DNA from: Pycnococcus provasolii
Taxonomy: Eukaryota; Chlorophyta; Pseudoscourfieldiophyceae; Pseudoscourfieldiales; Pycnococcaceae
Reading direction: 5' to 3'
Assembly: GCA_938743325.2 (NCBI GenBank)
Contig: OW568874.1
Coordinates: forward strand, 496,001-560,000
Length of the DNA: 64,000 bases
This document shows positions 3,648 to 49,202 of the stretch, piece by piece. Each line of letters opens with the position of its first letter. Positions within the stretch are counted from its first letter, which is position 1. The position numbers were made by a program, and so were the translations under genes. The notes under the pieces are model-generated. The model worked only from the letters and a program-made list of their open reading frames with translations. It searched no databases and had not been told where the DNA came from.

Positions 3648-4749
3648 GACGAACTAGGGGCGTGACGAGTATAGAATACGAAGGTAACAGCTAGGAAGGT
3701 ATCGCCGCCGCCGACGCCAACACCTCCCGAGACCGAGGTGCTGCTCAGAATGCCTAATGGGCGAAATGGAGGATGCGGCAAACTAAAACCCTAACCCTAA
3801 GGGCTAGTAATTGCTCAGGTCGCCTGAAAACCCTAAGATAACCCTATCAGGAAAAGACCTCAGGAAAAGGTTAAAGGGCCCTCTGTTGGAAACCCTAACC
3901 TTTATCGTATCTCCCAGGTGGCTTTCTCAGGTGGCTAACCCTATCGTAGTTACTAGACTATCATAGGAGGACCTGGTTAGAAACCCTATCCTACAGACCT
4001 ACAGTACCTTATCGTAGAAGGTCTCGATAGTCCTACATAGTCTATGTTGTGTCACGTTAAAGACTTAAAGTTTAGTCTATCGCAGTGAGGTTAAGGCGGA
4101 GATTGAGAGAAATTGAGGTGGGCAAGACTCATCAAGAGGGTGAAGAGGCCAGCAGCCGGTGTATCCTGAAGGTATTACGTGGATTGCTCAAGGTGGGCAA
4201 GACTCTTGAAAGCCACTTGAAAGAGCACTCATCAAGCGCAAGAGGAGGAGCAAGAGGGCTCCAAGAGCCAAGAGGCCAGCCCACCTATAAGCTTACTTCT
4301 ACCAAAGGTAACTTAAGGTGGTCAAGAGGTTAATTCTTACCTATAACGTAAGAATACGTGGTCAAGAGGTCAACCATGATGCCCTGATACATAGGTGGTA
4401 AGTGGTAGGTGGTATGTTGTTGTTGTTGTCCCTCATTCAGGGTAGTCAGGGATAGTTGTCGTCGTTGTTGGTTCCAATTGGGGAGCGTGAAGAATAATGG
4501 GACTGTTTGGTAGGGCAATATTGGAGGCCTTGCCGGAGCCCGGAGCTCCTGTTGTTGACTGCCTGTTGGTCCCTGTCCAGGTCCAAGTCAAGTCCCCTCG
4601 GTCATCGGTGTCCCCCTACGCTACCGGGAAGTCTAGTTCGGAAACGGACAGCTTTGCTTCCCCCTCAGGGTTCATTCACTGTTGCCGTGTGTGTTGCCGT
4701 GTTCATTTCCTGTATTCGTGTATTAGCCTTAGTGTATTTGCCTGCTATT
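3648..4749. other. Intergenic region between divergent genes, telomere-like remnants
   Basis: No convincing gene. The region separates the head-to-head TAF1 and the small gene starting at 4750. It starts with a short CCCTAA tract (3785-3800) and continues with scattered degenerate pieces (aaccctaa, ccctatc, ggttag) to about 4000. From 4090 to 4330 there are repeated gtgggcaagactc and caagagg words, suggesting decayed tandem repeats. A short open frame at 4085-4333 has repeat-like composition and is not called. Confidence 0.6.
3785..3800. repeat. Short interstitial CCCTAA tract
   Basis: Two and a half units of CCCTAA on the plus strand (TTAGGG on the minus), about 140 bases upstream of the TAF1 start codon. 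Confidence 0.7.
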
Positions 4750-21119: not shown

Positions 21120-24100
21120 ATGTCGTCGCCCCATCATTCAGGCCCGCCCTCATTCCCTGGCGTGCCTCACTGCTTAGGAGGGGCGCCAGGGGCACGTGGG
21201 GGAGCAGCAGGAGGAGGTGCACCTGCATGGCCACCTGGTGGTCGTCCAGGGGCAGCATCATCACCGGGAGGAGGGAAAAGAACGGCACGAGGAGGGACTT
21301 CGTCTTCGGTGCAGCCAGGGTTCTTGCCCGCATCCCTCCTCCAAGGGGGTGCCGTACGCGCGGTCGTCACGAAACCTGAAGATAAAACACGAGTTGATGA
21401 TGTACAACAGCAGACGGCGTACAGGAACATCAACGAAGAAGAACCATGTCTCGCGAGACAGGTACAACAGCAGACCGCGAAACGAACCCCCCAGGAGGAT
21501 GAAGAGGCACGCCCGTCGTCGTCACAGGGACAGGGGGGAAATAACCCACCCGCACTTGTGAACAATCCCTTGTGCGTCGACGTCGACGTCGACGTACCAG
21601 GCCGAGACCTCAACATGCCAGAACAAAATACACATACGCCTGCTGCAACAAACGACGACGACGACGTTCCTGCTTCTGACCCAGCAAACAACAACACGGA
21701 CACCCAGCAGCACCACAACGCCGATGCTGCTGATGCGCCCTCCTCAGCAGCAGCAGAAGCACCTCCGCACTCATCCACGACACCGCCACCACCACAACGC
21801 GCACCATCATCACCACCGCCCCCAACTTTGTCGCGACTCAGGTCCACCTCTGCGAAGGAACTCGACGACGAAGCACTCGCACGACGGCTTTCGGTTGCGC
21901 TGAACGCGCGCCCGCGTAGGACAGCTGTCGTCACAACCGTGCCGACCAAGATTCAAAGGCAGGCAACCGTTGGCGGTGAACTCGTCGACGGCGAGCCCGT
22001 CTGCTTTGCTTGCAAGCGCACCCATTCGTCCGCAGGACTTGTGCCTGACGTTCCGTGCTGCCACGCGGGTTGCTACAAGATGTACCATGCACACTGCGTG
22101 AAGCTCGGTGGTGCGACGGGACCCAACAACCGCGGCCTCGTCAAGGTGACCATGAAGGGGAAAAGGTGGGTGTGCGGACACCACGTGTGTGCTGACGGAA
22201 TGGACGATGGAAATGGCGCGCTCGTTACGTGCGCGATGTGCCCGACGGCATATGCGAGTGAGCGCGTACCGAAGACGTTTGTGCGTGACTCAGATGAGTC
22301 GTGTGTTGGGCTGTGTCATACGTGTGCCTGCGTTGTCGCTGCCGCGGTGGACTCGCGGACCAAGATTACCGCGAGGTCAGGATCGCAAGGTGACGAGGTT
22401 GTTCTGCGAGAGGAATTGAGTGCCGCACGAAGGTACTGGGAGCAGGTGGCACAACCGACGATTGAGCGAACACTGAATCCGCACGAAGCACCACCTCCAC
22501 CGCCTCCTGTGCCACCACCTTTACCACTAACACGAACACAGCCGCAGGCACAAAAGACGCGTGCTCGACATAACGATCGCAGAAACGACGACGGCGACGA
22601 CGAAGACGAAGAAGAGGCGCAGCAGCAGACAGAGGAAGAGGAAGAGGAAGAGGAGGAAGAGGAAGTAGAAGAAGAGCCGCGCAGTGCACTGAACCAATTC
22701 GACTGTCCGCTGTACGCCGCACCTCCGCCGCGAAGGGCGGCAAACAAAGGAATTCAACGCTTTGACCCTTCCGCGCCTGTGAACGTGGGTGCCTTTGCCA
22801 ATACGAAATCGCGCAAGACGACGACGACGACGACAAAAACAGCAGTAGCACGCGCACCGCCGAAAGGATCAAGTTCTTCGCTGCCATCGAAATCAAGGTC
22901 TACCACGAACACTCCGAGCGACGTCATCATGCCACCCCCACCACCACCTCCACGACGAGTGTTGAACAGGAATGTGAGACTGGATGAAGTGGATATGGTA
23001 GATGGCGATGAGGTGCGCGACAAGAAGACGGAGTCTGTGAAAGTGTCTGCACCGACGAGCCGTAAAAGAAAGCAAGAGCAACAGCGTGTTAGTGCAAAAT
23101 CTAAGAAGCGTGTGTCCAAAGGAGAGAGAATGACGAATCGAGCTGCTGGTGCTGCTTGTGCTGCTCCAATGAATACTTATGATGACGCCGACGACGGCGA
23201 TGATCACGTGGACTACGACGACGACGAAGCTGAAATCGATGATGTTGCCAATGAAGACGCGGCAGTCAAGTGTCTGATGGGTCTCGCAGATGCACCTATG
23301 GTGGGTGCCAACGTGCACAATACTACGACGACAAAGCAGCCAACGAAGCAAACACGCGAATCCTCGAAACCTAAGAAGAACAACACAGGAACACCCACGT
23401 CAACGCTCACGCCAAACCCCACACGACCGACAACGGCGATTACGCCTGAAACAAAGCAGCAACCGAAACTTGTGAGCGCTAAGGTGCAGGCACAGGCACA
23501 GGCGACGAGGGTTGTTCCTCTTGATACGATACCACGCAAACTTGCAAAACCGAAGTCGCCTCCTGCCGTCACTATCACCCCAACGACAGAGGGAGTACAT
23601 TCGACGGATGTCGTCGCAAGCCCGAGCGCTTCGGAGACACAGGCCGCCGGGATCGATGCTATTGCTGTTGCTCGTGCCGCTGCCGCTGCTGCGATGCGTC
23701 CTTTCTGGAAAAAACAGCAGTCAGATGATGGAAAGAAGTCTGTGGAGGAAAAGGTGTGCTCCGACGAGGCTACAACAGTGCCGTTGTTGGAAGTGGCGCC
23801 GCGATCAGTGTCACAAGCGTGGCCTGACGATGAGAAAGCTGCAGGTGAGGACTTAAGTCGCGGCGGTGAAAAGTCTGTTGGACGATCGAGGTCGAGGTCG
23901 AGGTCACCCGTGAGGAACAGTGGACCCTCAGAAGAAGAGTTGTCGATATTATGTGCTCTGGAGTCTGGGTTTGTCACACGCAACGATCTCATGAACCTTG
24001 TGCGCATGAAGAAGCTGGATGCCGCAAATCAAGCCATTGTGTCATTAGCGAATGGTCCGGAGGCTCGAAGGTTGGGTATTACCGCAGCCTACTGCATTTG

Positions 24101-25136
24101 CCAGCTCGACGTGTCTCCGTGCATAGCGGAAGCCGCGCACCGTCAGATGGAAGCTTCCCGAACGGCCGGTTTGCCCACGCCAAATGTTGCTATACGCGTG
24201 CTTCCCTTCATAGGCGAGAAGTGGCAATGTGATGGTCGCTCGAGTACGCGTATGATGAATTTCACGGTCGGTATCATGGATGTGGAAAACAAGCGGCCAA
24301 CTATCGAGGATGCTCAGCGCATGTTCCGTTCTGGAGCTCCTATGATAGGCCACAGTTTGATGCAACGCGTGAATAAAATTGTGAAAGAGGCTCTCAATGG
24401 CGGCATCGAGAGCACACAACCACCACCCTTGCGAAGCCAGCCAACACCACTTCCAACTGCTCACGGTCAATCACCACCACAACTACCACCGTCATCATTA
24501 CCACAACCACCACCACCATCACACGCGATAACGAAGTCGCAGCCGCAGCAGCAGCAACACCATCAACGGCAGCAGCAGCAGCTGGAGGAGAAAAAGCAGT
24601 ACCCGCCACCACCACATCGCCACATGCCACCTCCACAGCAATACCCCCCTCCACCTTCGCTTCGCCACATGCCACCTCCACAGCAATACCTCCCACCGGC
24701 TCCGCTTCGCAACCCCTCATCAGCACCCGGCGCTGCTTACATGCCACCTCTACCGTTCGAACAATCGCCGGCGCCTCCGTTGTGGCAATACAGTGCCCCG
24801 GTGCCTCCTCGTCGTCACCCAGATCCACGCTCCCTGCCACTAGGTCCGCCGCCACCATTCAGGCCCTATGATGGTCCATCATCACATCCACATCCGCACG
24901 CTGAACGATTTCGTCGTGGAGACTCGCCAGAGCGATTTCGCCGTGCAGACTCGCCAGAGCGATTTCGCCGTGGAAGCTCGCCAGAGCGATTTCGCCGTGG
25001 AGGTTCGCCAGAGCCACGTCGTGGTGACCGCCACGATTCCAGTTGGAACTGGAATTCGCCGCCATCTCGACGCTCGGACTATGACGACAGGGATCGTGAC
25101 CGGAACAGACCTCCCCCTTCGCATCGACGCTGGTGA
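21120..25136 (+). CDS. Large PHD-type zinc-finger protein with disordered regions
   Basis: 1,338 residues from ATG 21120, an uninterrupted frame; the 55 codons upstream are hydrophobic and not part of the protein. Residues about 290-407 hold two linked Cys/His clusters: CFACKRTH...CCHAGCYKMYHAHC...WVCGHHVC, then CAMCPTAYASE...CHTCAC. This resembles the adjacent PHD/C5HCH arrangement in NSD- and EDM2-type chromatin proteins. An E-rich acidic run lies near 500. A folded-looking block (ELSILCALESGFVTRNDLM... to EALNGG) occupies about 940-1095. A Pro/Gln-rich tail ends in five copies of a nine-residue SPERFRRG-type repeat. I infer a nuclear regulator that binds histone or RNA. Low-complexity regions could hide introns. 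Confidence 0.65.
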   Translation: MSSPHHSGPPSFPGVPHCLGGAPGARGGAAGGGAPAWPPGGRPGAASSPGGGKRTARGGTSSSVQPGFLPASLLQGGAVRAVVTKPEDKTRVDDVQQQTAYRNINEEEPCLARQVQQQTAKRTPQEDEEARPSSSQGQGGNNPPALVNNPLCVDVDVDVPGRDLNMPEQNTHTPAATNDDDDVPASDPANNNTDTQQHHNADAADAPSSAAAEAPPHSSTTPPPPQRAPSSPPPPTLSRLRSTSAKELDDEALARRLSVALNARPRRTAVVTTVPTKIQRQATVGGELVDGEPVCFACKRTHSSAGLVPDVPCCHAGCYKMYHAHCVKLGGATGPNNRGLVKVTMKGKRWVCGHHVCADGMDDGNGALVTCAMCPTAYASERVPKTFVRDSDESCVGLCHTCACVVAAAVDSRTKITARSGSQGDEVVLREELSAARRYWEQVAQPTIERTLNPHEAPPPPPPVPPPLPLTRTQPQAQKTRARHNDRRNDDGDDEDEEEAQQQTEEEEEEEEEEEVEEEPRSALNQFDCPLYAAPPPRRAANKGIQRFDPSAPVNVGAFANTKSRKTTTTTTKTAVARAPPKGSSSSLPSKSRSTTNTPSDVIMPPPPPPPRRVLNRNVRLDEVDMVDGDEVRDKKTESVKVSAPTSRKRKQEQQRVSAKSKKRVSKGERMTNRAAGAACAAPMNTYDDADDGDDHVDYDDDEAEIDDVANEDAAVKCLMGLADAPMVGANVHNTTTTKQPTKQTRESSKPKKNNTGTPTSTLTPNPTRPTTAITPETKQQPKLVSAKVQAQAQATRVVPLDTIPRKLAKPKSPPAVTITPTTEGVHSTDVVASPSASETQAAGIDAIAVARAAAAAAMRPFWKKQQSDDGKKSVEEKVCSDEATTVPLLEVAPRSVSQAWPDDEKAAGEDLSRGGEKSVGRSRSRSRSPVRNSGPSEEELSILCALESGFVTRNDLMNLVRMKKLDAANQAIVSLANGPEARRLGITAAYCICQLDVSPCIAEAAHRQMEASRTAGLPTPNVAIRVLPFIGEKWQCDGRSSTRMMNFTVGIMDVENKRPTIEDAQRMFRSGAPMIGHSLMQRVNKIVKEALNGGIESTQPPPLRSQPTPLPTAHGQSPPQLPPSSLPQPPPPSHAITKSQPQQQQHHQRQQQQLEEKKQYPPPPHRHMPPPQQYPPPPSLRHMPPPQQYLPPAPLRNPSSAPGAAYMPPLPFEQSPAPPLWQYSAPVPPRRHPDPRSLPLGPPPPFRPYDGPSSHPHPHAERFRRGDSPERFRRADSPERFRRGSSPERFRRGGSPEPRRGDRHDSSWNWNSPPSRRSDYDDRDRDRNRPPPSHRRW
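24899..25020 (+). repeat. 27-base coding tandem repeat (ERFRRGxSP units)
   Basis: About five head-to-tail units of 27 bases encoding ERFRRGDSP-like peptides near the C-terminus of the zinc-finger protein. Arg/Ser-Pro repeats of this kind occur in RNA-binding and splicing-associated tails. Confidence 0.8.
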
Positions 25137-30314: not shown

Positions 30315-32366
30315 ATGCCTTCCTCACGATCACCTCCTCGGCTTAACATTGCCAGCGTTACTCATGTTGCGATCCTAGTATCACTCGTTGTACTCTTAGT
30401 GCAAGGTATGTTACTTATGTAGGCTTTCGTTTTGTCTTAAGGGTGGTGCCTTTTGTCTTAAGGGTGGTCGCTTTGCACGTACCTTCTGCAGGGTTCGTTC
30501 ACGACTCGAGAGAGAGATCGGGCACACCTAGAGCTCTTCACACCAAAACTCTCCTGCCTGTTTTGCTTTGTTTTGTTTTGTTTTGTTTGTGTTTGTTTTT
30601 TCCCACTGTGGACTCGCAGTTCTCGATGAACTCTCTCACGCACTCACACGTGTCATTTCGCAGGTAACTTTGCATCGGCCGAGTACTTGATGCCCAACCA
30701 GGCTGCGCCTGCGGCTATGGCACTCACCTCGCCGACGCTCACCGTCGGAAGCACCACCGTGAACTGGGGAGAGCCCATCTGCCTATCCGTCAACGACATT
30801 TTGACGCACTCCACGTACTCCGCGGAGGTCGAGATGGTCTACGACAGGGGCTTCTCCGTTACCTACAAGGAGGCGCTCGCGAACAACAACGGAAACACCT
30901 ACGGGCCGTATGACAACAAGCTCTTCTTTGACGGAGAACTCAAGCAGACGATGACACGCACGCAGATCGCCGACGGGGAGACACGCACCGTCCAGAGCTG
31001 GTTCTCGAGGTCGACGGGTGCGAAAGACGGAGGAATCAGCCTCGGAACCACGGAACGGCTGTACACTTCGAGCAAGTTCGACAGCAACGCACACCCGCTC
31101 AAGCTCGAGATGGGCGGAGGAAAAGTGTACACGTCGATGGCCTTCTACTCGTGGAAAATGAGCTCGTGCCCGCCTGCGATGTGTGCGTGTGACTGCGCCA
31201 CGGGTGATCTGATTACCGCGACGACGACGGAGGCACCCACGACGACGGAGGCACCCACGACGACGACGACGACGGAGGCACCCACGACGACCACCACAGA
31301 GGCACCAAGCAACACACCCACCACCACGGAATTCTGGTATGCGGCTAAGCGACACCTGCTCGAGGCGCAGTGCCAGTGCCCGTGCCCGACAACACAGGCA
31401 CCAACCACCACCACGCAGGCGCCCTCCCCGCCGCCGCCGACGACCACGGAGGCGCCCTCCCCGCCGCCGCCGACGACGACTACCGAGGCGCCATCCCCGC
31501 CGCCGCCGACGACGACCACCGAGGCGCCATCCCCCCCGCCGCCTACGACGACCGAGGCGCCCTCCCCCCCGCCGCCTACGACGACGACCGAGGCGCCATC
31601 CCCGCCGCCTGCGACCACCACGGAGGCGCCTGCGACAGCCACCACCACGGAGGCGCCCGCTGCGACGACCACCACCACGGAAGCGCCCGCTGCGGCGACC
31701 ACAACCACGGAGGCGCCCGCTACGACCACGGAGGCGCCAGCTGGACCGCAGCAGACGATGTCTGCCTCGCTCCGTCTCACGGGAGTCACGGAGTCCACGT
31801 TCGACGCCGCGAGCTTCAAGCAGGGCATGGCCGCCGTGCTCAAGGTGTCGAAGGAGGCGATCACCATCAAGCAGGTGAAGCCGTGGTCCACCGCACGACG
31901 CATGCTGCTTGCGACGGAGGGCGTGGATGTCGACTTCACGGTGTCCGCCGCGACGGACACGAACTTGGCTTTCGTGTACAACACGGTGCTTGCGAACGGA
32001 TCTCTGCTGAGCAGCCTGACGAGCGCGGGCGTGTCGGCGACGAAGCTTGCGGCTGCACCGCTTACGATTGCACCTGTGTCGGCGCCGACTGGTGCGCCAG
32101 CGGGAGAGAAGAAGGTGTTCGGCGACGACAAGAAGTCGTCGTCGGACAACATGCCCATCATTATCGGCGTCGTGGTTGCGATTGCGCTCGCACTGGTGGC
32201 TGGTGTTGGTGCCATGCTCTGGCTGCGCCGTCGTGATGCTGCTCGCTACGCGAGCCAGGCGTCGTTCGACGAGTTCCCCCCCGAGAAAATGGTTAAGGTG
32301 CCGGTGGCAGCGCCGCCGTCGCCGCTTCCGCTCTCGAAGCAGATTCCGGCTGAGAAGAAGCCGTGA
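30315..32366 (+). CDS. Thr/Pro-rich type I surface glycoprotein, copy 1
   Basis: Two exons, 30315-30405 and 30664-32366, joined in phase 1 across a 258-base intron (GTATGT donor, CATTTCGCAG acceptor); 597 residues. The join completes a signal peptide (basic start, AILVSLVVLLVQG, cleavage after ASA). Order: an unknown N-terminal domain of about 160 residues ending in Cys-rich CACDC; a TTTEAPSPPPP mucin/hydroxyproline-type linker interrupted by KRHLLEAQCQCPC; a folded module (SLRLTGVTESTFDAAS...ARRMLLATEGVDVDFTV) like those in algal extracellular proteins; one membrane helix (IIIGVVVAIALALVAG); and a short tail KVPVAAPPSPLPLSKQ. It probably stands on the cell surface or in the secretory system as a heavily O-glycosylated rod. 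Paralogue of the gene at 35116. Confidence 0.8.
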
Positions 32367-32554: not shown

Positions 32555-34132
32555 TCACTTTGGAATGATGCATCCAATCAAGTTGTTCTCCGCGCGTACA
32601 GTCTTCACAAGCGATAGCTGGGCTTCTTGCGAATTCGCGTGATTCGATGGCGATGCTGCTGACGCATCAAGCGAATTACGGAGGGATTCTCGAATCTCTC
32701 CGAGCTTGGTTTGGCACAGCGGCTTGTTGCACACGTACGTCGTAGTTTTGAGATTGTCCTCGTCTCGCTCGAGGCGAGAGGTGCACTTTCTGCAACATAC
32801 TTTCAAGCATAGTGCGCAGAATGATTCAGCAAACTCTCGGCAATCTTGCCAATGATCACCACACTCACTGCACGTAAGCAACTCTAGCTGCCGCTGCCAT
32901 TTCTCTCGAAGGCGCTTGGCCGAGTCATGCATAATTTTTACCGATGCTAATCTCGACTGATCAACACAAATGGCAGCTTGAAGGACGTCGAGCCGCTCAC
33001 GTGCAGCGATTACCAGCGCGTCCTTTGCAGCCATATCAGCGCGTGCATTGTCGATATCCATATCATCCACGGCTACAGAGTTAGCAGTAGTAGGCGGCGA
33101 CGATGGTGTCAGTTTTTTAATTCGTGTGCTTATAGGCTCGAGACCATCTGCAATGCATTCTCCGCCACATCTCCACGATTCGCAATCCGTGCGGTGTAAT
33201 TCTTTGGCGTGACGCACTTCCTTGGCATGATCTGCCTTGGCGCCATTTAGGTTCGCTTGACACTCAGAAGCGGTGCACACATAAATGTCTTCCTCCTCTT
33301 CCACATGGCCTTCATCGTCTTGCACAAGCTTAGCGGTACTCACAGGGACGATCTCAGCACAGGACACACATGTCACTCGAGTCTCATCTGCATTTCCAAA
33401 ATCTGCACCACATAGTGCGCATTCTTGACTGCAAAGGTGCTTCTTGAGCTTTGCGCCCGCCGTCGAGTTGCGCATACTTTCATATTTTTGCTTCGCAGTC
33501 TGAAAGGCTACTTCTCGCTCGGCAAGTGTCCTTTTGAGCTGCGAAAGGCAAGGCGCATGCAGTGCTTCGGCCGCATTTTTCTCAAGAGCCAGTTTCTTAG
33601 CCAACGTCTCAGCCTCCTTCTCACGCGCCTTGCGAATGAGTCGATTTGCACGTTCGACATTCTTCTTCGCATCCTCCTCTAACTCACTCTCACTTATCTT
33701 AGCGTAGAAGCAGGCCGGCACCAGGTCTTTCATCGTCCCCGTTTGGTTGTTGTTGTTGTTGTCGTCGTCGTCGTCGTCGACTTCATCGTCATCGTCGTCT
33801 TCACTGTCTTCTCCCTCGTCGGATTCGTCGGACATCGATTCATCAAGGCGCTTCCTTTTTCTATTTGCTTTGCGCTTTTCCCGCTCTAGCTTGCGCTTCT
33901 CCCGCTTCAGCTTCTCTTTCACTTCGCGCATTTCCTCCTCCAGCTCATCTTCAAAATCCTCTGGGAAGTCGTACTCGTCGGCCCGTTTGCAGTACTGCGT
34001 CGCCACCTCCCGAGGTACACGCACACGCCACGCGTAGTCCGGCGCGGATTTGCGTGCCGCCGGAGTGGGAAGGTGTTTACGTGGCCGCAAGCCTCCGGTG
34101 GACTTGCGAGCATACTGCTTGGAACGCGCCAT
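32555..34132 (-). CDS. Histone H3-tail-mimic zinc-finger protein
   Basis: 525 residues from ATG 34132; the frame runs further upstream but in sequence without coding character. After Met, the protein reads ARSKQYARKSTGG, then PRK, L, T and AARKSAP at the spacing of histone H3. Against H3 residues 1-30, 23 positions are identical. K4, R8, K9, S10, K18, R26, K27 and S28 are kept; K14 and K23 are not. The match stops after P30 and no histone fold follows. Next come a basic coiled region, an Asp-rich acidic tract with an Asn run (about 97-130), helices, a first Cys cluster (CALCGADF...CVSC...YVCTASEC, about 236-287) and a second (CSECGDHW...CALCLKVCCRKC...YVCNKPLC, about 418-468). I infer a nuclear protein whose tail could be read by H3-tail enzymes and readers. 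No known family recognised. Confidence 0.8.
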   Translation of the reverse strand: MARSKQYARKSTGGLRPRKHLPTPAARKSAPDYAWRVRVPREVATQYCKRADEYDFPEDFEDELEEEMREVKEKLKREKRKLEREKRKANRKRKRLDESMSDESDEGEDSEDDDDDEVDDDDDDNNNNNQTGTMKDLVPACFYAKISESELEEDAKKNVERANRLIRKAREKEAETLAKKLALEKNAAEALHAPCLSQLKRTLAEREVAFQTAKQKYESMRNSTAGAKLKKHLCSQECALCGADFGNADETRVTCVSCAEIVPVSTAKLVQDDEGHVEEEEDIYVCTASECQANLNGAKADHAKEVRHAKELHRTDCESWRCGGECIADGLEPISTRIKKLTPSSPPTTANSVAVDDMDIDNARADMAAKDALVIAARERLDVLQAAICVDQSRLASVKIMHDSAKRLREKWQRQLELLTCSECGDHWQDCREFAESFCALCLKVCCRKCTSRLERDEDNLKTTTYVCNKPLCQTKLGEIRESLRNSLDASAASPSNHANSQEAQLSLVKTVRAENNLIGCIIPK

Positions 34133-35115
34133 CGGCCTTAATGAACGTTCTAAGACTTGTAACGCTAAGACAGACGCAAAAAGCTGTTCTGGCCTTAACA
34201 ACAACACACACACACACACGTGTACGCGTACTGCTTCGAAGTTAGTGATGCGAGCGAGCCCACCCGGACGCAACGCAAGAAACAGTGTTTCTTGGTGAAG
34301 TGAACTTGGAACATGTTCAAATCAAAAATCAAAGGGACCCTAACCCTAACCCTAACCGGATGAGACCTCCCTCCCTTGGAAAACGAAGCAACATTTTACC
34401 TTACCAAACAGTTTGGTAGGAAGGAAAAAGCACATACGGAGTATGAATACTAAACTAACGACGGATCCCCCTACATAGCTAACATTAAGGTACCAACAGG
34501 AAGCAGGTCACATCAGGGAGCAGGCCTTGGGTGGGCCCCTTGCTTGATGGAGGGATGGCAGATGATGCCCCTATCGTAACCCTTGATGGATGCCCTTGAT
34601 GGGTCCATCAATTGATGGGGCCACCGGCCACCCCTTGAGGGGCCCCACCTGGGGGAAAAGAGCCGTTGGAGCCCCTGGGGGGAACTAAATACTAAGACTC
34701 GTATGTGTCTTTCCCCCCCTTAAAAGGTGGTAGGAACTTCCTTCAGGCCAACGCCTCCGAGGGGTACGTTTGACTTTTTGATAGTCTATCAGGTTCCAAC
34801 GGATGGATGGGTTCCGGAACGTACGTACACCATACAAGAAGGCTCAGGTGGACCAAACGTTCTGTACCGTCTTGCGTCGTAGTCTTGCCATCGAAGGGTT
34901 CCTCCCCCCTGGCACCTAGGTGGGGCCCACCCAACCTGTTCTCTGCTCTGAACATACTGTAATACGTTGTGTGAAGTGACAGCTCTCCCTCTATTCTCTT
35001 ATTGTGAGGGCCTGCTTCGTCTTCGTTCCCCTCCCCTCCCCTCCCGCCATTTCATCTCAGCACCTGCGTCATTCTTCATTCCCTTCATCCACGGACTATC
35101 TTCTTTGACAAGAAC
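34133..35115. other. Divergent promoter region, no supported gene
   Basis: Upstream region shared by the H3-tail-mimic gene and the second surface glycoprotein. It holds an (AC)n run at 34205-34219, a TTAGGG-type tract at 34337-34357 and tgatggatgcc/tgatggg repeats at about 34530-34625. Confidence 0.5.
34337..34357. repeat. Interstitial CCCTAA tract
   Basis: Three CCCTAA units, about 205 bases upstream of the H3-tail-mimic start codon. Confidence 0.85.
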
Positions 35116-37396
35116 ATGGTTCGCCTTAACACACGTTTGTGTGTCCTTCCCGTGAAGATGAAGAATAAGAGCTTCATGGCCGTCTTCATAATGGGACTTG
35201 CAGGTATGTAAGCTTGCTTCGTGTCTTGGTGTCTTGTTCTTGTTCTTGGTCGTCTTTGTCTTTGTCTGTTTCTTGTTTTTCATTTTGTTGGTGTTGGTGT
35301 TGGTGTTGGTGTTGACTTGGTGGTTTGGTGTTGGTGTTGACTTGGTGGTTTGTTAATTCATTGGTTTGTTTTTGGTTTTTGCTTGTTTTTGCTTGTTTTT
35401 GGATATCGTTTTAAGTCTCAGCCCTTAAAGTCTTCTCAGCCCTTAACAACCATATATACTTCGAACGCGAATGTTCTCCACAAAACTCACAAAACTCACA
35501 CACACACACAACATTATTGAATACCTTACAACCGTTTTATTAGCCACTTGCTTTCTGAACACCGCCTCTGCGCAGACGCAGATGAACCTCTACTCGCCAA
35601 CGCTCACCATCGGAAGCACGACCGTGAACTGGGGAAACCCCGTGTGCCTTCAGGCGGCGGACGTCGTCACGCAGACGTTCCAATCGTCCGAAATGGAGCT
35701 CACCAACGACAGGGGATTCTCCGTCAAGTACAAGGAGAGCCTCGTCAACAACAACAACAACCCCTACGGGCCGTACGCAAACCAGCTGTACTTCGACGAC
35801 GTTCTCATGCAGACGATGGCACGCACGCAGATCGCAGACGGCGAGACGCGTGACGCTGAGAGCAAATTCACGACGGACAACGGCAAGAACTCAGGAGGAA
35901 TCAGCTTCGGTACCACGCAGTCGCTCTCAAAGTTCGACAGCAACGCGCACTTGCTCAAGCTCGACATGGGTGGAGGACGCAGCTACACCGCGACCGTGTA
36001 CTACGCGTGGAAAATGGATACGTGCCCGCCTCCGATGTGTTCGTGCGACTGCCCCGATCAGCCGACCACGACAGCGGCTCCCACGACGCCGGCTCCACCG
36101 ACTACGACTCTCGCCTTCACGCCATTTGCGGGAAAGCGACACCTGCTTCAGGGAATGTGCCAGTGCGCCTGTGCGACGACAGCCGCTCCGCCGACGCCGC
36201 CTACGACAACGGCGCCCGTGACCACGACTACGACCTGCATGTGCCCGGTGCCGTCCCCGCCGCCGAAGAGCAGCCCGCCGCCGCCGTCGCCACCGACGTC
36301 GTCCCCGCCGCCGAGCCCGCCGTCGCCGCCGTTTGAGAAACCGAAGTACTTCTTCTCAGCCAAGCGACACCTGCTCAGCGGACTGCGTCGTACGCTTGAG
36401 GCGAACACTGTGTGCGACTGCAGCACACCCGGAGCGATTGATGCCAATACGCCTACTACGCAGGCGCCCTCCCCGCCGCCGCCTACGACCACCACTGAGG
36501 CGCCATCCCCCCCGCCGCCTACGACCACCACCGAGGCGCCATCCCCGCCGCCTGCGACCACCACCACCACGGAGGCGCCCGCGACCACCACCACCACGGA
36601 GGTGCCTGCGACAGCCACCACCACGGAGGCGCCTGCGACGACCACAACCACGGAGGCGCCCGCTGCGACGACCACCACCACGGAGGCGCCCGCTACGACC
36701 ACGGAGGCGCCAGCTGGACCGCAGCAGACGATGTCTGCCTCGCTCCGTCTCACGGGAGTCACGGAGTCCACGTTCGACGCCGCGAGCTTCAAGCAGGGCA
36801 TGGCCGCCGTGCTCAAGGTATCGAAGGAGACGATCACAATCAAGCAGGTGAAGCCGTGGTCCACCGCACGACGCATGCTGCTTGCGACGGAGGGCGTGGA
36901 TGTCGACTTCACGGTGTCCGCCGCGACGGACACGAACTTGGCTTTCGTGTACAACACGGTGCTTGCGAACGGATCTCTGCTGAGCAGCCTGACGAGCGCG
37001 GGCGTGTCGGCGACGAAGCTTGCGGCTGCGCCGCTTACGATTGCACCTGTATCGGCGCCGACTAGTGCACCAGCGGGAGAGAAGAAGGTGTTCGGCGACG
37101 ACAAGAAGTCGTCGTCGGACAAGACGGACATGACGCCCATCATTATCGGCGTCGCGGTTGCTGCCATTCTTGCGCTCTCAGCTGGTGGCGGCATCATCTG
37201 CTGGCTGCGTAGCCGCAACGTGACGCGCTACGGACTGCCGTCGCCGATGATTGTTAAGACTGGCGGTGCGAACACCACGTACAAGAGCTGGAGCTCCTTT
37301 AAGGAGCCGAAAAAGGAGGCGGAGAAGGTGCCGGTGGCAGCGCCGCCGTCGCCGCTTCCGCTCTCGAAGCAGGTGCCGTCTGAGCAGCACATTTAA
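35116..37396 (+). CDS. Thr/Pro-rich type I surface glycoprotein, copy 2
   Basis: Two exons, 35116-35203 and 35544-37396, phase 1, 340-base intron (GTATGT donor, TTTTATTAG acceptor); 646 residues. The splice yields a good signal peptide (MKNKSFMAVFIMGLA continued by ATCFLNTASA). A one-exon model from ATG 35471 in the same frame also gives a signal peptide, but the spliced one repeats the intron position and phase of copy 1. Domains match copy 1: N-terminal domain (SPTLTIGSTTVNWGNP), Cys-rich end, a Pro-rich linker with two KRHLL motifs (KRHLLQGMCQCAC, KRHLLSGLRRTLEA), TTTEAP repeats, ARRMLLATEG module, membrane helix and the same KVPVAAPPSPLPLSKQ tail. The intron contains ttggtgttggtg tandem repeats (about 35286-35350). 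Confidence 0.8.
36703..37125 (+). repeat. Near-identical duplicated block shared with copy 1 (31730-32150)
   Basis: The two surface-glycoprotein genes are almost identical over roughly 415 bases here, with about eight substitutions counted by eye. They differ clearly in the N-terminal domain, linker and membrane helix. A further 50-base identity covers the cytosolic tail and part of the 3' untranslated region (gggtatgggtgaagcgattt). Confidence 0.8.
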
Positions 37397-47783: not shown

Positions 47784-47804
47784 GTTAGGGTTAGGGTTAG
47801 GGTT
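47784..47804. repeat. Interstitial TTAGGG tract
   Basis: Three TTAGGG units in the 358-base divergent promoter, 70 bases before the ankyrin start. Confidence 0.9.
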
Positions 47805-47873: not shown

Positions 47874-49202
47874 ATGCCTCGCGGCGGCGGTGCGTCATCA
47901 CGTTGTAGTAAAGATCACGAAACATGCACCATGACGCATGCGCCTGCTGTAGAGGAGGACGAGGAGGACGACGAGGAGCAGATGAGAATGCAGGTGGATG
48001 CGCTGTTGCGTGATGAGAAAGCGAGATTGGCGCACGAAAATGCCCGTCTGCAGCGCGAAAATGATGGCCTGCGCGAGCTTTTGCAGTACCAGCAGCATGC
48101 GACGGTTGAGGATGACGATGTTTGCGACGAAGAGGCAGTCACGCCCGAAGCTGAGGGAACGCCGTGGTACAGAGAACGCCTGTGGCGTATGGCACAGCCT
48201 GCTCATGATGGGACGCCGTCGTCGTCGGCATGCATTCAGCTACCACCCCGAGGAACGCCAGAGCGAGCCGAAGCTGTGCACACCTTCAACGCATTCTTTC
48301 GCAAGGATCGTGCAAATGCTCAGCTCGCATTGTCCAAATCGCGATGCCACATGGCGACGCGGCACAATAGGCCTGAACATCTCCAGACTCTGATCTTTCG
48401 TCAGAGAGAAGACTTCAACAAGCCTGATCTAGATGGATTTGCACCCATACACATCGCTGCTCGCGAGGGATACGATGAGTGCCTGCGCATCCTACTTCGC
48501 GCGAAGGCTACCGTGGATGACGCAGACAACTCTGAATTAACGCCCATTATGCACGCCGCGTGGAATGGACACGAGGAGTGCCTGCGCATCTTAATCCGCG
48601 CGAGTGCGAGCTTGGGATACAAGGATAGGCCTACTGCCGTGCACGCCGCCGCGTGTAATGGACAAGCGACGGCACTACAGATGCTCATCGACGCCGGGGC
48701 GGACATCAATGCCCAAGATGACAAAAAGTGTACTCCCGTGCACCACGCCGCCGCAGCAGGACGCGCGAAGGCACTGAAGATGCTCATCGACGCCGGGGCG
48801 GACATCAATGCCCAAGGTTACAAAAAGCAAACTCCTATGTATGCCGCCACCTTTTATCGACGCGCGAAGGCACTAAAGGTGCTCATCGACGCCGGGGCGG
48901 ACATCAATGCGCACGATGACGAAAAGTGTACTCCCGTGCACATCGCTGCGTTTCATGGACACGTGACGGTAGTGCGGATGCTCATTAACGCTGGGGCAGA
49001 TGTCAACGTAAATGATAACGTCAGAAAGCAAACTCCCATGCACATCGCCGCTTTCAATGGGCACGCCACAGTTGTGCAGACGCTCATCGACGCCGGCGCG
49101 GACGTCAACGCAAAGGATGACGAAGGCGCAACTCCCGCGATGCTTGCTGCTCGGAATGGACACAAGGAGTGCGTGAAAGCAATCGTTGCCGCGTGCGTGT
49201 AA
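47874..49202 (+). CDS. Ankyrin-repeat protein with coiled-coil N-terminus
   Basis: 442 residues from ATG 47874. Residues about 35-75 form a short acidic/coiled segment (EARLQREN-like heptads: ARLAHENARLQRENDGL). From about 175 to 440 there are eight ankyrin repeats; each has the TPMHIAAFNGHATVVQTLID-type helix pair and GADINA or GADVNA turns. The middle repeats are nearly identical (MLIDAGADINAQ), reflecting a 99-base coding tandem duplication between 48661 and 48930. Ankyrin repeats bind protein partners; none is indicated here. No catalytic domain or membrane segment is seen. Confidence 0.85.
   Translation: MPRGGGASSRCSKDHETCTMTHAPAVEEDEEDDEEQMRMQVDALLRDEKARLAHENARLQRENDGLRELLQYQQHATVEDDDVCDEEAVTPEAEGTPWYRERLWRMAQPAHDGTPSSSACIQLPPRGTPERAEAVHTFNAFFRKDRANAQLALSKSRCHMATRHNRPEHLQTLIFRQREDFNKPDLDGFAPIHIAAREGYDECLRILLRAKATVDDADNSELTPIMHAAWNGHEECLRILIRASASLGYKDRPTAVHAAACNGQATALQMLIDAGADINAQDDKKCTPVHHAAAAGRAKALKMLIDAGADINAQGYKKQTPMYAATFYRRAKALKVLIDAGADINAHDDEKCTPVHIAAFHGHVTVVRMLINAGADVNVNDNVRKQTPMHIAAFNGHATVVQTLIDAGADVNAKDDEGATPAMLAARNGHKECVKAIVAACV
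48661..48930 (+). repeat. 99-base coding tandem repeats (ankyrin units)
   Basis: Near-identical units containing ctcatcgacgccggggcggacatcaatgc; three copies by eye. This indicates recent unit duplication inside the ankyrin array. Confidence 0.75.

Follow-up and report, generated by a model that had tools for sequence, protein, structure and literature searches.

An N-terminal histone H3-like tail on a cysteine-rich protein, one of at least four tailed non-histone proteins in one genome, as a possible H3K9-type mimic

The window analysed here, the whole 64,000-nt stretch of DNA and part of contig C14 of a genome of 32.3 Mb in 46 contigs, contains a gene, zfA, whose predicted product begins like histone H3. 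The 525-aa product (ORF 34132-32555, minus strand) starts MARSKQYARKSTGGLRPRKHLPTPAARKSAPD, and window positions 33950-34132 of the minus strand translate as MARSKQYARKSTGGLRPRKHLPTPAARKSAPDYAWRVRVPREVATQYCKRADEYDFPEDFE. Upstream of the predicted start, no in-frame Met was found back to the preceding in-frame stop. The initial annotation had described an H3 tail after the Met, and the comparison bears this out: 23 of 30 residues are those of H3 at identical spacing, with the changes T3S, T6Y, K14L, and K23P as it had listed and with A15R, Q19H, and A21P in addition. By composition, the chance of such agreement for a single N-terminus is 1.3e-21, and residues 18–30 alone agree at 10 of 13 positions (P 7e-10). 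The top match of zfA in a phmmer search against PDB chains was a histone H3 chain (E 1e-6), and the PDB matches stop by residue 42 (best 60 of 136). No Pfam histone family was found in the 525-aa protein at E ≤ 1, which confirms that no histone fold follows the tail.

The tail is followed by a charged linker and then by two modules rich in Cys (Table 1). Module 1, of which module 2 appears to be a repeat, is related to the Cys module of a second protein encoded in the genome, zfB (BLASTP as a single comparison: E 8e-8, 30 of 99 residues identical). The label "zinc finger" given to zfA earlier is plausible only: the Cys pairs are present, but no Pfam family exceeded its cut-off on the modules, the nearest zinc finger being FYVE_2 (E 0.27, 11.8 vs 27.2 bits). 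The modules gave no convincing relative in the PDB (best E 0.43). A match of Nop53 to the linker scored under its Pfam cut-off and was rejected. A search of the whole protein and its first 45 residues against algal proteomes had been proposed; the protein database that we searched returned nothing for full zfA at E ≤ 1 (7999 candidates scored), nothing for residues 185-500 at E ≤ 1 (2258 candidates), and nothing for residues 1-45 at E ≤ 10 (11 candidates). Since the tail query drew 11 candidates only, the database appears to be poor in eukaryotic H3-tailed proteins of the allowed length, and its silence therefore says little about algae and their proteomes.

Table 1. Positions of zfA, of its parts, and of the other tail-bearing proteins (zfA and its parts in window positions, the others by contig)
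Feature	Position	Strand	Remarks
zfA, tail-bearing protein	32555..34132	-	525 aa; one uninterrupted frame ending in a stop; ATG at 34132
H3-like N-terminal tail, Met and residues 1-30 (mature numbering)	34040..34132	-	23/30 residues as in H3
K9 core ARKSTGG (A7-G13)	34091..34111	-	21/21 nt same as own H3 gene
Second ARKS motif (A25-S28, K27 equivalent)	34046..34057	-	among the four tails, zfA only
Charged linker	33743..33961	-	Glu/Lys-rich stretch, then Asp run; from translation
Cys-rich module 1, C234 to C326	33155..33433	-	related to the zfB Cys module (contig C30)
Cys-rich module 2, C421 to C473	32714..32872	-	CX2C-X4-CX2C core, YVCNKPLCQTKL end
SET-domain protein	C36:172436-174505		689 aa, starts MARTKMTAQKSTGGKAPRTELPT; Pfam SET
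SMCHD1 homologue	C24 from 611166		starts MVRTVQTARKSTGGKAPSK; Pfam and PDB
zfB, Cys-rich protein	C30 from 485544	-	245 aa, starts MARARKMARKSTGGNAPRR; kin of zfA beyond the tail

The tail is not an isolated case. Genome-wide tail queries, when pooled, gave four non-histone loci besides the three canonical H3 genes, which lie on C22. The four are zfA, a SET-domain protein, an SMCHD1 homologue, and zfB. The genome's own H3 tail as the query retrieved all four loci along with H3. Beside H3, the zfA tail retrieved itself and the SET protein, the SET tail retrieved itself and zfA, and the SMCHD1 tail retrieved only itself; the whole zfB protein retrieved itself and zfA. The four ORFs are unrelated or distantly related, and in each the tail starts with the first Met that the frame offers after a stop; Ala or Val follows this Met. 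An H4-tail query of the same genome gave three loci only, all of them H4 genes on C22, and a general borrowing of histone tails is not supported by this control, which covered H4. Two DNA pattern scans were also performed. The first gave 140 matches against 162 in the reversed control, and 30 loci checked for the motif among the 100 matches listed yielded two internal cases and no further N-terminal tail. The second gave 88 matches against 89 in the control (8 exact and 80 with one mismatch). The exact matches were the three H3 genes, zfA, SMCHD1, zfB, a place on C10, and C4:107408, which reads ARKCTGG; among the 80 one-mismatch matches, the known SET gene alone was examined. Because the scans did not rise above their reversed controls and were followed in part, the four tail proteins are a lower bound.

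The place on C10 (C10:881251-881270; L081, G000:C10:880600-881400) has an internal ARKSTGG in an open frame beside a stretch that appears Tudor-like by eye. It was not counted as a fifth tail because the motif is not N-terminal, and it may be an internal K9 mimic or a chance occurrence. Against viral contigs, the tail alignment produced 8 pattern matches, none of which was confirmed, and one short viral-contig match of the SET protein (L082), phage-like by its ORFs, was taken as chance.

Two of the four hosts, the SET protein and the SMCHD1 homologue, possess chromatin-type domains, and a chromatin role of zfA and zfB is putative. The SET protein matched PF00856 in two stretches (E 3.2e-11, 44 bits vs a cut-off of 22.4). 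Its VDYG motif is present and its NHxC motif is, by eye, not canonical, so that its activity is putative; among the best 60 of 124 PDB matches, H3 chains alone appeared and no SET chain. The homologue of SMCHD1 has both the GHKL ATPase and the S5 domain (HATPase_c_3, E 1.8e-5; SMCHD1_S5, E 1.1e-27) and matched SMCHD1 in the PDB (6mw7, E 1.4e-33), and its SMC_hinge match (E 0.13) was under the cut-off on a translation that lacks its end. Pieces 88-91% identical to the SET gene, short and with small frames, occur at C38:446900, C43:4951, and C23:710, in two cases no more than about 5 kb from where a contig starts. They are possibly remnants of duplicated copies, and the SET gene may therefore be part of a duplicated sequence. 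An ORF resembling DNA methyltransferases (L014:265-1632, plus strand; PF00145, E 1e-7) and the SET-tail gene converge, with some 800 bp between this ORF and the end of that gene.

We compared the four tails residue by residue to determine which part of H3 is kept. Residues 1-17 agree with H3 at 13, 15, 14, and 12 of 17 positions in zfA, SET, SMCHD1, and zfB, respectively. With KSTGG left out, the values are 8, 10, 9, and 7 of 12, for which the chance expectations over an assumed 12,000 genes are 0.0018, 1e-6, 5e-5, and 0.043; the case of zfB is accordingly supported in part by the seed and by its kinship to zfA. Agreement over residues 18-30 is clearly above chance in zfA only (10/13, against 3/13 in SET, 2/13 in SMCHD1, and 3/13 in zfB). 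R2, A7, K9, S10, T11, G12, G13, and P16 are kept in all four tails, although part of the constancy of KSTGG reflects ascertainment, the searches being dependent on shared words. The core reads ARKSTGG in three tails and AQKSTGG in the SET protein, in each case at the N-terminus. K4, K14, K18, and K23 vary among the tails. K4 is present in two, the N-termini being ARSK in zfA and ARTK in SET, and is replaced by Val in SMCHD1 and by Arg in zfB; K27 stands in an ARKS context in zfA alone. A reading through K4 or through Polycomb proteins (K27), which the initial annotation had offered beside K9, thus does not extend to the set. It had also held that relatives conserved elsewhere and not in the tail would speak against the idea; the one paralogue compared, zfB, is tailed and shares 14 of 27 tail residues with zfA.

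The origin of the tails was examined at the DNA level. Over 34 codons, zfA and the genome's own H3 gene are equal at 75 of 102 nt, and their DNA alignment starts at the ATG and ends at nt 109. The same codon is used at 16 of the 23 identical residues, whereas 9.6 are expected from the codon usage of the window (P 0.0026) and 7.7 from that of the gene itself (P 0.00025). This likeness in nucleotides and codons indicates that the zfA tail is probably a copy of the 5′ end of the H3 gene, or has been refreshed from it by gene conversion, and that it is probably a younger copy of that gene's own DNA. Codon identity is at expectation in the other tails (SET 5/18, SMCHD1 9/16, zfB 6/15). Capture of an H3 promoter is not supported because, of the four DNA alignments, three begin no more than 1 nt from the ATG and one begins within the coding part.

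Over codons 1-17 against H3, pS and pN were 0.84 and 0.12 for SET (Fisher p 8.5e-7), 0.82 and 0.23 for zfB (p 6e-5), and 0.55 and 0.14 for SMCHD1 (p 0.006), where pN is biased low since the tails were found through protein similarity. Over 30 codons, the difference was significant for SET (p 2e-5) and zfB (p 0.004) and not for SMCHD1 (p 0.22). These values point to selection on the protein in the SET, SMCHD1, and zfB tails. We read each of the three as an older tail held by selection at the protein level or as a product of convergence, and both would imply function. The corresponding test on zfA, which the initial annotation had proposed in the form of dN/dS, was not clearly passed: 30 codons gave dN 0.20 and dS 0.47 (Fisher p 0.051), and codons 1-17 gave p 0.41.

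Known histone mimics are, to our knowledge, mostly short motifs, found singly and largely in animals and viruses. The SNAG sequence resembles H3 only loosely, and its core, which we take to be of the PRSFLV type, is absent from zfA, whose tail starts ARSKQYARKS. Like the tails described here, the SNAG domain imitates the H3 tail at the N-terminus of a non-histone protein, where it occupies LSD1 (PMC5896174); it differs in that the substrate cleft of LSD1 is bound, whereas here K4 is dispensable and K9–G13 is constant. G9a and GLP automethylate H3-like motifs that are then bound by HP1, a contact that can be blocked when the next threonine is phosphorylated (PMC9768651). The likeness to the present tails is an H3K9-like lysine on non-histones, one of them a SET protein, with an adjoining Ser/Thr as a possible phospho switch. 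The motifs of G9a and GLP are internal (K185 and K239; K205), whereas the present ones occupy the extreme N-terminus over 17–30 residues at H3 spacing, in at least four proteins, with one tail recognisable as a probable copy of the H3 gene. Mammalian SMCHD1 is tied to H3K9me3/HP1 chromatin indirectly, via LRIF1/HBiX1 and HP1 (PMC4628070); there the adaptor LRIF1 makes the link, whereas the homologue described here has a K9-like tail itself. In one study, 313 H3K9-like mimic candidates were proposed among EHMT interactors (PMC10611923). Among the matches listed from the open-licence literature, and in the portions consulted, N-terminal H3 tails on several non-histones of one organism were not described. 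Several gene-derived N-terminal tails within one genome were not found in print among these matches; mimicry as such is known, with SNAG and G9a/GLP as examples.

The constant K9 and S10 site, the two chromatin-related hosts, and the SMCHD1/HP1 and G9a/GLP precedents lead us to favour an H3K9-type mimic that is methylated and read. On this reading zfA begins with a borrowed H3 tail, as do at least three other proteins of the genome, and we adopt it tentatively, as our leading explanation and somewhat short of probable. Removal of the initiator Met is usual ahead of residues such as Ala and Val, so cleavage of the present Met would expose nearly the N-terminus of H3. The K9-like lysine would then be methylated by the cell's own H3K9 methyltransferase(s), the methylated tail would be bound by a reader of the chromodomain type, and phosphorylation of S10 could break the contact. 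The host proteins would be recruited to, or retained among, K9-marked chromatin. The SET protein would perhaps act on its own tail in the manner of G9a, and the Cys-rich modules of zfA would be the effector or binding part. The earlier suggestion that the tail could be used by H3 machinery is retained here as the best explanation and gains three further proteins, but the part that is kept is the K9 region rather than K4 or K27, and precedents exist. The set suggests that the cell may steer tail proteins with the same marks as chromatin. A possible extension, in which we have clearly less confidence, is that the histone code reaches non-histones, the four tailed proteins serving as surrogate nucleosomes that are jointly recruited through H3K9 writers, readers, and S10 kinases.

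Candidate components of such a system were sought in the genome. Chromodomain searches gave 22 matches at E ≤ 1, and 9 of these exceeded the cut-off alone or with frame neighbours; one of the 14 control genomes gave a match, and none was over the cut-off. One small chromodomain frame on C28 reached a Pfam E of 1.2e-6, and its aromatic cage, at the positions that we take to form it, seems incomplete by eye. A Pre-SET search gave no SUV39-type gene, and its controls were silent as well. At L079 (around G000:C22:213468), a frame combines a weak chromodomain (E 0.058) with a PHD-like finger (NSD PHD-1, E 0.00026, under the cut-off) and is a candidate H3 reader. At 21120-25136 (plus strand), the window itself encodes a possible reader of H3 tails, a 1338-aa protein whose PHD finger is NSD-like (PF22908, E 2.3e-5, over the cut-off).

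Several N-terminal H3 tails, one of them traceable to the DNA of an H3 gene, would show mimicry arising through gene copying. If the favoured reading is true, the genome would allow a direct test of the H3K9 system as a general code for protein recruitment, and an SMCHD1 homologue that carries a K9 tail of its own bears on how SMCHD1 became tied to HP1 chromatin.

We weighed H3K9-type mimicry against four other explanations. The tail might act in cis as a pseudosubstrate that folds onto the protein's own reader or enzyme (the SET cleft or the Cys module) and keeps it off until displaced by H3 or by modification. We consider this unlikely, although one tail is on a SET protein and two are on related Cys-rich proteins, and although in BAZ2B a histone-mimicking linker weakens the binding of H3 to the PHD finger of the same protein (PMC5663869). 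BAZ2B likewise imitates the H3 N-terminus within one molecule, but its mimic consists of lysine-rich interdomain-linker stretches that resemble the positively charged H3 N-terminus and not of a full tail (PMC5663869). The identity of the Cys modules as fingers is only putative, and recombinant mammalian SMCHD1 alone did not bind an H3K9me3 peptide (PMC4628070). A target in cis is therefore not obvious in the SMCHD1 homologue.

The tail might instead be mainly a tag for nuclear import or chromatin localisation, a basic peptide for H3 importins or chaperones. H3 tails are basic and bind importins, and the chromatin-type domains of two of the four hosts make these two probably nuclear. We judge this explanation quite unlikely, since the four tails keep R2, A7, K9–G13, and P16 in exact spacing rather than charge: the lysines K4, K14, K18, and K23 are variable, and three of the tails agree with H3 over residues 18-30 hardly better than by chance. 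A functionless accident, in which 5′ ends of H3 were copied ahead of other genes, agrees with the visible derivation of the zfA tail from the H3 gene (same codons at 16 of 23 residues against 7.7-9.6 expected, alignment from the ATG) and with the unclear selection on it. The occurrence of four cases against zero for H4, the two hosts with chromatin-type domains, and, in three tails, the retention of residues 1-17 despite divergence at synonymous sites make it highly improbable. Capture in the manner of SNAG, with the N-terminus in the pocket of an LSD1-type demethylase or a K4 reader and the complex recruited, is the least probable, since the ARSK and ARTK N-termini of zfA and SET and the precedent on repressors such as GFI1 and SNAI1 (PMC5896174) are outweighed by Val and Arg at K4 in SMCHD1 and zfB and by a constant part that beyond R2 consists of A7, K9–G13, and P16.

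The surroundings of zfA were also inspected. The gene is flanked by paralogous Thr/Pro-rich proteins at 30690-32366 and 35471-37396 (plus strand), opposite in strand to zfA, and their C-terminal parts are very similar by eye. Perfect (TTAGGG)n tracts of 2-5 units occur within the contig at window positions 3789, 13795, 14999, 34338-34355, and 47785-47802. The ATG of zfA is preceded by one of these tracts at a distance of about 206 bp, and an ATG at 47874 by another at about 72 bp. The tracts may be promoter elements or insertions of telomere repeats. Other ORFs in the window resemble, by eye, plastid-type DXR and protoporphyrinogen oxidase, from which we infer a photosynthetic eukaryote.
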